Shown here: one piece after another, positions 1 to 20,819 of the stretch
How positions within the stretch are numbered: position 1 is the first letter of the stretch
How the letters are laid out: every line of letters starts with the position of its first letter
From: Oxalobacteraceae bacterium
GTDB lineage: Bacteria > Pseudomonadota > Gammaproteobacteria > Burkholderiales > Burkholderiaceae_D
DNA length: 47,126 bases
NCBI GenBank assembly: GCA_027485795.1
Contig: JAIXQK010000068.1
Coordinates: 1-47,126, forward strand
Direction: 5' to 3'
Notes under the pieces: generated by a model
What the model was told of the DNA's origin: nothing
The model's input: the letters and a program-made list of their open reading frames with translations, nothing else
The model's database searches: none
Position numbers and translations under genes: made by a program

Positions 1-355
<355 letters not shown>

Positions 356-5096: not shown

Positions 5097-5113
5097 GGTT
5101 TATAGAACATGGC

Positions 5114-5147: not shown

Positions 5148-6644
5148 ATGACCGAACTCGAATTTCGATCGCTGGCCGCGCAAGGCTACAACCGAATCCC
5201 GCTTATCTCCGAGGCGCTTGCCGACCTCGAAACGCCACTCACGCTTTATCTCAAGCTTGCGCAACCGCAACATCAAGGTCGCAACACCTTCCTGCTTGAA
5301 TCCGTCGTCGGTGGCGAGCGGTTCGGGCGCTACTCCTTCATTGGCCTGCCGGCCAGCACGCTACTCCGCAGCTTCGGTATGCACACAGAAGTCGTAAAGC
5401 ATGGTGAGGTAATAGAAACATCCGAGCAAAACCCGCTTGATTTCATTGCCGAGTTTCAGGCCCGCTACAAGGTCGCACTCAGTCCCGGAATGCCACGCTT
5501 CTGCGGCGGTCTGGCCGGATATTTCGGGTACGACGCGGTTCGCCTCATCGAGCGCAAACTGGAACACAGCGCGCCACCGGACACGCTGCAGTTACCCGAC
5601 ATACAACTGCTGCTAACCGAAGAGCTAGCGGTCATCGATAACCTCTCGGGCAAGCTCTATCTGATCGTTTACGCAGACCCAAACCGCGCCGAGGCCTACA
5701 GCAGTGCTAGACAGCGGCTGAAAGACCTGCGCGCAATGCTGCAACGTCCGGTCGATGTGCCAGTGACCTCGGCCTCGGTCCGCACCGAAGCAATTCGAGA
5801 CTTCAAAAAAGAAGATTTTCTACAAGCCGTACTGAAGGCCAAGGAATACATCATGGCCGGTGACCTGATGCAGGTACAAGTAGGCCAACGTATACGTAAG
5901 CCCTATGTCGACTCACCCTTGTCACTTTATCGCGCACTGCGCTCGCTGAATCCTTCGCCCTATCTGTATTTCTATAACTTCGGTGATATGCAGATCGTCG
6001 GTAGCTCGCCTGAAATTTTGGTGCGTAATGAAACGAATCGAGATGGCCAGCGCAAGGTCACGATTCGTCCGTTGGCGGGCACCCGGCCACGCGGTGCAAC
6101 GCCCGAGCTAGACGCCAAGCTGGCCGATGAATTACTGGCAGATCCCAAAGAAATCGCCGAGCACGTCATGCTGATCGATCTTGCACGCAATGATATTGGT
6201 CGCATCGCCGAAATCGGTAGCGTGCAAGTGACCGATAAGTTCGTCATCGAAAAATATTCACATGTGCAGCATATCGTGTCGAATGTCGAGGGAACGCTGA
6301 AAGATGGCATGAGTAATCTCGATGTACTGCGTGCCACCTTCCCGGCCGGAACCTTGTCTGGCGCACCCAAAGTGCGGGCAATGGAATTGATCGACGAACT
6401 CGAACCGGTAAAGCGCGGCATCTATGGTGGCGCCTGCGGCTACATGTCGTTTGGTGGCGAAATGGATCTCGCTATCGCAATCCGTACCGGCGTCATCAAA
6501 GACGGCATGCTCTATGCACAAGCCGCTGCCGGCATCGTCGCCGACTCCATCCCCGAAATGGAATGGTTGGAGACAGAAAACAAAGCGCGCGCCGTGTTAA
6601 GGGCTGCGGAACAGGTACAAGACGGCCTCGATGGGGAACTGTGA
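5148..6644 (+). CDS. trpE: anthranilate synthase component I
   Basis: The 498-aa subunit aminates chorismate and eliminates pyruvate to give anthranilate, using ammonia from TrpG. The N-terminal tryptophan feedback site is recognisable as LLES (49-52) and the paired SPYLYF region. The chorismate domain shows [59 protein letters not shown] and AIRTGVI. GGAGAG lies 4 nt before the ATG at 5148; the longer frame upstream lacks similarity. Its last 22 codons (6576-6641) recur three more times downstream. The stop TGA shares its A with the ATG of the first repeat-encoded small frame. It is the first enzyme gene of trpEGDC. Confidence 0.97.
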
Positions 6645-6793
6645 TGGTAACTCACCCTAAAGCGCGCTTTGTTTCGGTGAAGGCTAACCTGCACTTAGTG
6701 CAGGTTAAGCGCAGCGGCCGGAACCAAAATAAGTCCTGCGCCGTATTGCGTGCGGCGGAGCAGGTACAAGGCGGTCTTGATGGGGAACTGTGA
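6644..6793 (+). CDS. repeat-encoded small frame 1 (49 codons), trpE-tail end
   Basis: Open from the ATG that overlaps the trpE stop (TGATG) to a TGA at 6791-6793. The N-terminal 27 residues ([20 protein letters not shown] and on) have no similarity I know. The C-terminus [20 protein letters not shown] copies the TrpE end. GGGGA in the trpE tail is placed as a ribosome site about 7 nt upstream. Translation is possible by coupling, but the unique part differs from the next copies only by amino-acid-changing substitutions, so a conserved protein role is not shown. Confidence 0.35.
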   Translation: MVTHPKARFVSVKANLHLVQVKRSGRNQNKSCAVLRAAEQVQGGLDGEL

Positions 6794-6942
6794 TGATCAC
6801 TCAATCTTTAGCGTGCTTTATTTCGGTGGAGGCTAACCTGCACGTAGTGCAGGTTAAGCGCAGCGGCCGGAACCAAAATAAGTCCTGCGCCGTATTGCGT
6901 GCGGCGGAGCAGGTACAAGACGGTCTTGATGGGGAACTGTGA
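6793..6942 (+). CDS. repeat-encoded small frame 2 (49 codons), trpE-tail end
   Basis: This frame starts with the ATG overlapping the previous stop (TGATG) and runs to 6942. It begins [20 protein letters not shown] and ends in [17 protein letters not shown], identical to the true TrpE terminus over those 17 residues. The same GGGGAACTGTGATG junction precedes it. It is one link in a chain of one-base-overlapping frames between trpE and trpG. Expression is unproven. Confidence 0.35.
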   Translation: MITQSLACFISVEANLHVVQVKRSGRNQNKSCAVLRAAEQVQDGLDGEL

Positions 6943-7091
6943 TGATCACTCACCCTTTAGCGCGCTTTATTTCGGTGGAGGCTAACCTGCACGTAGTGCA
7001 GGTTAAGCGCAGCGGCCGGAACCAAAATAAGTTCTTCGCCGTATTACTAGCGGCGGAGCAGGTACAAGATGGCCTGGACGGGGAGATCTGA
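6942..7091 (+). CDS. repeat-encoded small frame 3 (49 codons), trpE-tail end
   Basis: The third frame starts at the TGATG overlap (6942) and ends at TGA 7089-7091, one base before the trpG ATG. It begins [20 protein letters not shown] and ends [17 protein letters not shown]. Its tail is the most diverged of the four, yet six of its eight codon changes from the preceding copy are silent. The last codons contain GGGGAG, the ribosome site used by trpG, so passage of ribosomes through this frame could influence trpG. Confidence 0.35.
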
Positions 7092-7092
7092 C

Positions 7093-7656
7093 ATGCTGCT
7101 AATGATCGATAACTATGATTCGTTCACCTACAACCTGGTGCAGTATTTCGGCGAACTCGGTGAAGATGTTCGCACCTACCGTAACGACGAGATCACTATC
7201 GAGGCAATCGAGCAACTCAAACCTACGCGTATCTGCATTTCGCCAGGTCCCTGTACACCGCACGAGGCGGGCGTCTCAGTCCCGGTACTGCAACACTTCG
7301 CTGGCAAGGTGCCGATCCTGGGCGTTTGTCTCGGGCATCAAAGCATCGGCGCCGCCTTTGGTGGCAAGGTAATCCGAGCGAAACAGGTCATGCATGGCAA
7401 AACCTCGCCGATCGAGCATACCGGCACCGGGGTGTTCAAAGATCTGCCGAGTCCCTACACGATTATTCGCTACCACTCACTCGCCATTGAGCGCGAAACG
7501 CTGCCAGACTGCCTGGAGGTGACCGCTTGGACTGAGGATGGCGAGATCATGGGTGTACGTCATAAAAACTTCCCGATCGAAGGCGTGCAGTTCCACCCCG
7601 AGTCAATATTGTCCGAGCATGGCCACGATCTGCTCAAGAACTTCCTCACTAGCTGA
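7093..7656 (+). CDS. trpG: anthranilate synthase component II (glutamine amidotransferase)
   Basis: The 187-aa class I glutaminase feeds ammonia to TrpE, and in many betaproteobacteria possibly also to aminodeoxychorismate synthase. It has [19 protein letters not shown] at the start, [11 protein letters not shown], the nucleophile loop GVCLGHQ (Cys79), the HGKTS signature (101-105) and FHPES with catalytic His168 and Glu170. GGGGAG, inside the last repeated trpE tail, stands 7 nt before the ATG at 7093. An in-frame ATG 24 bp upstream lies in the repeat and is unlikely to be used. trpD follows after 11 bp. Confidence 0.96.
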
Positions 7657-20743: not shown

Positions 20744-20819
20744 TGGTGCCGACTGCAGGACTCGAACCCGCCACCCCATGATTACAAATCAAGTGCTCTA
20801 CCAGATGAGCTAAGCCGGC
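20744..20819 (-). tRNA. tRNA-Thr (anticodon TGT)
   Basis: A 76-nt cloverleaf with the CCA end encoded. The acceptor arms GCCGGCT and AGTCGGC pair with one G-U. The D-arm is AGCTCATCTGGTAGAGC; the anticodon loop is CTTGATTTGTAATCA with anticodon TGT; the T-arm is GGCGGGTTCGAGTCCTGC. It closely resembles E. coli thrU. It lies 18 bp downstream of sspB on the same strand. Confidence 0.97.

Follow-up and report, generated by a model that had tools for sequence, protein, structure and literature searches.

The window (the whole stretch of DNA analysed, 47,126 nt) belongs to a draft genome of an Oxalobacteraceae bacterium (G000; 3.24 Mb in 183 contigs) and carries trpE and trpG on the forward strand, separated by a tandem array (Table 1). 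The contig starts with a partial 16S rRNA gene (1-353, reverse strand), and a tRNA gene is located at 20747-20819, also on the reverse strand. A 498-aa TrpE query matched 55 of the 56 genomes searched, including this one. TRF reported a single array in the window, at 6606-7084, with a period of 149, 3.2 copies, 91% matches and 0% indels. A preliminary description had proposed that the end of trpE occurs four times here, with an exact period of 149 bp and a common hairpin in each unit, and these three points were borne out: the stop codons end at 6644, 6793, 6942 and 7091, the repeat copies found begin at the starts of the three units with a spacing of 149 and 149, and three hairpins with the stem TAACCTGCAC/GTGCAGGTTA are present at 6685-6707, 6834-6856 and 6983-7005.

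Table 1. Features of the trpE-trpG region, in positions of the window
Feature	Position	Strand	Remarks
trpE	5148..6644	+	From the ORF list; last codons inside unit 1; in-frame ATG at 5109 upstream also possible
Insertion point, G/AAAAC (G then AAAAC), in Glu-Asn codons of trpE	6576..6577	+	Motif from 55 unique upstream contexts; empty site in the near relative G002
Unit 1	6577..6725	+	Begins directly after G; x1, trpE tail, stop 6644, linker, x', T-shaped hairpin
x1, partner of x'	6578..6590	+	13 nt, 100% complementary to 6662-6674
x' of unit 1, guide-like arm adjoining the hairpin foot on its 5' side	6662..6674	+	13 nt, 13/13 complementary to x1; counterparts 6811-6823, 6960-6972
T-shaped hairpin of unit 1	6675..6725	+	Copies 6824-6874, 6973-7023; covariation on 36 copies
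Unit 2	6726..6874	+	93% identical to unit 1
Unit 3	6875..7023	+	88% identical to unit 1
Last trpE tail	7024..7091	+	GGGGAGATCTGAC junction with trpG resembles that of uninserted relatives
Bridging small ORF 1	6644..6793	+	49 aa from ATG; GTG at 6641 also possible
Bridging small ORF 2	6793..6942	+	
Bridging small ORF 3	6942..7091	+	Ends 1 nt before the trpG ATG
trpG	7093..7656	+	ATG at 7093

The unit borders were set by comparison with relatives. Each unit starts with A(A/C)AA at the head of a trpE tail with its stop codon, followed by a linker, a 13-nt arm (x') and a T-shaped hairpin of 51 nt. In the fold of unit 1, a long stem formed by x' and the first bases of the unit (x1) stands beside the hairpin, and this fold beats those of shuffled sequences both as DNA (z -3.78) and as RNA (z -2.89). 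Moreover, each unit is an open ORF of 49 codons, and neighbouring ORFs overlap as TGATG. An assembly artefact, which the preliminary description had considered, is unlikely because arrays of one, two or three units are also found in other genomes; in addition, the units of this array are not identical to each other. The number of units differs between sister species, with three in G000 and one in G020.

A dispersed family of hairpin elements at gene ends

The trpE-trpG repeat is built from a short hairpin element, present in three copies, which belongs to a dispersed bacterial family located at many gene ends and appears to carry the trpE end along with it. The hairpin is composed of an outer stem, a GNA/GNA loop, GGC/GCC, a main hairpin and a lateral GCGNAGC mini-hairpin. 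Within the window, the covariance model (R1) matches at 6668-6732, 6817-6881 and 6966-7030. Among 36 diverse copies, 91.4% of the cells are paired and 12 of the 22 pairs show double changes, with 89 double-change cells compared to 32.0 (sd 4.2) in shuffled alignments (0/500); base pairs included in the search pattern cannot vary and are uninformative in this respect. By sequence reading, the lateral mini-hairpin forms a variable hairpin of its own in the genus, which supports the T-shaped fold.

A search of the own genome for the exact hairpin motif found one place outside the locus, with 3 mismatches, and the covariance model identified six further structural relatives. The nine copies recovered by the model are distributed as three at trp, two at ftsW-murG (contig C157), three after gap (C164) and one at nuoC-nuoD (C59), and those at ftsW-murG, gap and nuoCD also adjoin duplicated gene ends. 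At the genus level, 15 of the 21 genomes have model matches at E<=0.01, some of them weak. A pattern with a free loop matched 29 of 399 genomes of the order, including this one, and its reversed control gave no match; in a sample of the class, this genome was the only one matched among 274, with 0 of 271 outside the order. In a sample of the phylum, the covariance model matched 5 of 299 genomes, four from the order (the own genome included) and one from elsewhere in the class, and the two richest genomes contain at least 17 copies each. Scanning of named genomes gave at least 119 stretches with the element. One viral contig of the collection also harbors a copy, which lies within an open frame of 220 aa (L232:9351-9388).

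No Rfam covariance model matched the element between 6500 and 7150 at E<=5. An earlier description of the hairpin family was not found among the best-ranked matches listed from the open-licence literature, and the pertinent passages of PMC3733652, PMC5934647 and PMC8266576 contain none.

A direct repeat clearly flanks the hairpin in 49 of 160 non-redundant copies; the 111 copies with no detectable flanking repeat count against the explanation that we favor below. Stop codons of open stretches of at least 100 aa on the same strand peak 11-40 nt upstream of the conserved core (59/104), compared to 16 of 71 in the opposite orientation. The genes read from the tails include ftsW, trpE, glmS, smpB, gap, metK and argF; they were named mostly by sequence reading, FtsW being confirmed by Pfam at one locus. 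The anatomy of the trp array is repeated at three other loci of the own genome and at many genes. At nuoD and in one further pair the copied end is, by reading, a 5' end.

Several individual loci display particular arrangements. In the own genome, the ftsW-murG junction carries a tandem family array with a period of 131 at a contig end (L283, C157:8200-9465), the three units after gap have a terminator-like stretch between each hairpin and the next gap tail (L284/L305, C164), and the element at nuoC-nuoD is oppositely oriented and accompanied by a copy of the 5' end of nuoD (L285, C59:16566-16637), as also seen in L296 and L297. At L290, L291 and L302 the element is situated within or behind a cysH-like frame, and a cysD-like start comes next; the element is read as a C-terminal extension of the cysH-like frame in L290 and L302, and the tail is repeated in L290 and L291. 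At L292 and L298, the element lies between two genes and the first codons of the second are copied upstream of it. Copies L052 and L065 of G050 occur within longer repeats whose flanks have inverted ends resembling GAAACGCTGAA/TTCAGCGTTTCC, a different and MITE-like setting. Finally, in L051 (G053) serS is followed by a hairpin relative and then by a strongly diverged second serS end.

Target site, pairing arm and mosaic tails

The insertion point corresponds to the motif A(A/C)AA. Of 55 unique upstream contexts, 47 have A at position 0, 47 have A or C at +1, 49 have A at +2 and 45 have A at +3. Among the 43 contexts that lie outside array interiors, 34 have a G directly before the insertion point (-1). 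The relationship of x' to this site could be analysed in 42 of 63 mapped copies (31 first copies and 11 array-internal ones), the other 21 being dropped as duplicates, for lack of a starting A or for being too close. In the 31 first copies, the reverse complement of x' matches the native target x1 at 9.65 of 12 positions and the downstream copy at 7.58 of 12; x1 is the better match in 19 copies and the worse in 2. The notion of long inverted arms facing the downstream side in every copy proved too strong, such pairs of 8/10 occurring in 7 of 44 copies with flanking repeats (0.9 expected), and it was dropped, the arm fitting the upstream native copy better. Two observations count against our preferred explanation: array-internal units show poor pairing with the tail that directly precedes them (6.09/12, 11 rows), and the downstream target copy, as seen in the rows, keeps its first bases and is altered at about positions 6-13.

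The arm covaries with its target. At ftsW, 91.6% of x1:x' cells are paired over 11 distinct rows and 8 of the 13 pairs show double changes, with 30 double-change cells compared to 10.0 (sd 2.6) after shuffling (0/500). These rows include Methylotenera, Cupriavidus and Paraburkholderia records, and leave out four of 15 (L153 and L162, which were not picked up, L093, which gave no match, and L195, identical to L226 and merged with it). At trp and gap, the same synonymous changes (AAT/AAC, GAA/GAG) are read on both the x1 and x' sides.

The presence of the insert is patchy within the genus, where the trp insert is absent from G002, G003, G010, G012, G013, G014, G015 and G019. On a tree of the trpE body (20 rows), the insertion requires 5-6 changes, and its scatter resembles that of shuffled labels (172/500). 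Mosaic-looking tails are observed at some loci. For example, G017, which has one unit, and G002, which has an empty site, differ at 15/500 positions in the trpE body, at 7/47 in the first tail, too divergent at a P value (5e-4) that, like all those given here for tails, comes from small samples, uncorrected and with comparisons chosen post hoc, and at 4/47 in the last tail; the last tail and trpG junction of G017 resemble the empty site of G002. In G002 itself (L022), trpG breaks off about seven codons in, downstream of the empty trpE end, by an assembly break or a real disruption. Two of the other filled/empty pairs, those of G018 (P 0.036) and G007 (P 0.008), likewise have an excess of divergence in the first tail. 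Evidence counted against our explanation comes from G008, one of the four pairs, whose first tail shows no excess (P 0.87), from G007, where the excess extends to the last tail (P 9e-4), and from the own trp array, whose first tail differs from that of G020 at 6/47 positions with a P value of 0.061 only, although its next two tails differ from that same tail at just 3/47 and 2/47.

A similar pattern is present at gap. The gap body of G000 is nearest to that of G020 (30/900), and its tails 1-3 are at 7/51 from G020 (P 0.0015 for tail 1) and 3/51 from G005; its last tail is at 2/51 from G020. Within G020, the second gap tail differs from the first at 10/51 positions (P 6e-6), all synonymous by reading. 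Several first tails at trp and gap look foreign, judging from their divergence, and last tails look native; in the window, we infer that the last trpE tail is the native copy. Tail-to-tail differences at codon positions 1/2/3 amount to 10/1/57 at trp, 18/15/27 at ftsW and 17/14/46 at the other loci, some of which have bridging ORFs. This third-position bias suggests that the tails come from two coding lineages rather than from decay. Exchange of tails by homologous recombination or gene conversion could also produce such mosaics, without transposition.

Small open reading frames across the units

At trp, all 18 units tested, in 13 of 13 loci, are open and have a start overlapping or adjoining the previous stop, leading to trpG. 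The criterion was an ATG, GTG or TTG within -14..+8 of the previous stop, and the 18 units comprise 16 full ones, one with a 21-nt deletion (G006) and a 59-bp remnant (G009), both deletions keeping the frame. At ftsW, a start overlapping the ftsW stop and reading through the element is present in 11 of 11 loci, a count that leaves out L093; in seven of these, the bridging ORF runs 4 nt into the following long ORF before it stops, and in the other four that ORF was not recognised. With the 8 of 8 testable ftsW-murG units of the genus, two more at contig ends being left out, the total for ftsW-murG is 19 of 19 bridged. The cases at trp and ftsW are related and do not count as independent of each other. 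At gap, none of the 10 units has a bridging ORF. Elsewhere, the same loose criterion gives bridging in 25 of 55 rows (24/52 at other genes and 1/3 at glmS), so that gap provides the strongest contrast.

These patterns support the view that the trpE-trpG insert has been kept readable, and the bridging ORFs, with their stop/start overlaps and frames that stay open up to the next gene, fit selection for translational coupling. A functional peptide is unlikely to be the point, because the frame in which the element is read differs between trp and ftsW-murG; coupling is the likelier reason for the open units. In Escherichia coli, the end of trpE has a UGAUG stop/start overlap through which translation is coupled to trpD(G). 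The same overlap is found at the trpE end here, but, unlike in E. coli, the coupling would run through one to three small ORFs placed in between.

Origin of the array and comparison with known systems

The explanation that we favor, with moderate confidence, is the guide-paired insertion of a single-stranded, tail-carrying unit, combined with selection for reinitiation at trpE-trpG and ftsW-murG. The array would then represent three head-to-tail copies of a non-autonomous mobile unit of 149 nt, inserted between G and AAAAC in the last codons of trpE, and insertion would restore the gene because each unit brings a spare trpE end. The 13-nt x' arm, complementary both to the first bases of the unit and to the target site and followed by the T-shaped hairpin, would pair with the target while the unit passes from one genome to another in single-stranded form, and an enzyme acting in trans would cut between G and A, in the manner of the guide and cleavage site of IS200/IS605. 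Renewed insertion, or recombination between tails, could add units to an array. Selection for ribosome reinitiation at trpE-trpG and ftsW-murG would keep each unit open, with a start that overlaps or adjoins the previous stop, and ribosomes that reach the end of trpE would pass through the bridging ORFs to trpG.

In IS608, according to the passages of PMC5934647 on this mechanism, a guide lying immediately 5' of the foot of the hairpin base-pairs with the cleavage/target site and insertion occurs at a short motif, and the same layout is observed here. However, the present guide is about 13 nt long and differs per gene, whereas that of IS608 is a fixed tetranucleotide; moreover, the hairpin is T-shaped, and the unit lacks a transposase and contains the end of a host gene. 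The likeness to the IS200/IS605 guide lies in the complementarity and covariation of x1 and x', and its extension to the cleavage side is by analogy. IS200/IS605 elements insert without duplicating their target, and agreement with them on this point would hinge on the first tail being carried in and not duplicated. A 149-nt unit has no room for a TnpA Y1 transposase, and Y1_Tnp (PF01797) is present in just 4 of 8 high-copy carrier genomes outside the own genus; the stretches around the 8 Y1 genes of these genomes contain no family hairpin and two weak half-matches. A resident enzyme near the copies was also looked for by clustering 751 ORFs from 120 stretches, the largest cluster, among the 40 largest, being present in 8 loci. 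Of nine representatives of recurring clusters scanned against Pfam, eight belong to ordinary host families and the ninth matches none, which leaves no candidate among these nine.

The main rival, though rather unlikely, is target duplication. A T-shaped palindrome would insert with a long and variable direct duplication (~25-110 bp), x' would be 10-18 nt of target copied by snap-back or target-primed synthesis, only insertions that regenerate a gene end would survive, and tails would become mosaic later by recombination. This scenario accounts for the order x..y - x' - hairpin - x..y and for the start of x' exactly at the insertion point, and it agrees with tails that are identical over the compared stretch in glmS (L073, L209), gap (L270, L301) and trp (L102). 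However, the foreign first tails and the third-position bias of tail differences would need a second process, and the target-primed form has against it that RVT_1 is absent from 11 of 14 carrier genomes. With RVT_1 in 3 of these 14 genomes only, insertion driven by a reverse transcriptase was rejected.

The preliminary description had also offered a REP-like insertion that was then amplified, and this is partly borne out, the hairpin being a dispersed palindrome and the number of units differing between sister species. A simple local history, in which a single REP/MITE-like element entered after trpE and then multiplied through tandem duplication and unequal crossing over, is improbable. The variable number of units and the likeness of units within a genome are in its favor, but it leaves unexplained the complementarity and covariation of x', the recurrence of this anatomy at unrelated genes, the target motif and the patchiness, and plain amplification fails to explain why some first tails at trp and gap look foreign. 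REP/REPIN sequences with their RAYT (TnpA_REP) are, as here, small dispersed palindromes without a gene of their own and often near gene ends. The present family differs from them in its few copies in the own genome (nine, the richest genomes notwithstanding) and in the absence of the family hairpin beside the Y1 genes checked, and its tag is not that of REP, being GCAG in 58, GAAG in 44, GGAG in 31, GTAG in 25 and other in 2 of 160 copies. A REP/RAYT identity was rejected because of this tag and the patchy occurrence of the Y1 enzyme. The passages on REP/REPIN in PMC3733652 and PMC8266576 do not mention gene-end copies or an x' arm.

A MITE with terminal inverted repeats and a short target duplication of fixed length does not fit, the flanking repeats varying in length and including gene ends. 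Some genomic islands integrate at gene 3' ends and supply a replacement end, the native end being displaced downstream. The same arrangement would hold here, but with units of ~131-192 nt that contain no integrase gene. Integron attC sites are folded single-strand sites with variable terminal hairpins and occur in arrays, features shared by the present element, and their boxes have the consensus R'' RYYYAAC and R' GTTRRRY. By inspection, the GGCTAAC ... GTTAAGC of the element misfits R'', and the layout differs.

That the array is chiefly regulatory, maintained by selection on the TrpE:TrpG ratio or on mRNA stability with mobility incidental, is highly improbable: open bridging ORFs in the tested trp and ftsW-murG units and the stable fold from x1 to the hairpin would agree with it, but the trp insert is missing from the eight genomes of the genus listed above and the same element occurs at gap without bridging ORFs. 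Tuning of TrpE:TrpG stoichiometry, proposed in the preliminary description, is likewise not supported as the reason for the array, because the same anatomy is found at gap, glmS, smpB and other genes.

Guide-paired insertion of a tail-carrying unit would, more broadly, define a minimal class of homing elements, which we put forward tentatively. Its members, of ~130-190 nt and without a gene of their own, would combine a replacement end of a host gene, a 13-nt guide to this gene and a T-shaped hairpin, rely on a trans-acting enzyme that recognises the hairpin, spread among related bacteria into the same codon pair of ftsW, trpE, gap, glmS and smpB, stack there, and have a guide that tracks its target. 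If this is true, the target of a mobile element would be chosen by a 13-nt complement of a housekeeping gene, and the element would bring a working gene end as the price of its entry. Such elements would represent a natural gene-specific insertion system bearing its own guide, with the enzyme to be found, and would also provide conserved operons with small in-frame ORFs. Finally, the family provides a natural experiment on translational coupling, the element being readable in every tested case at trpE-trpG and ftsW-murG and in none after gap.
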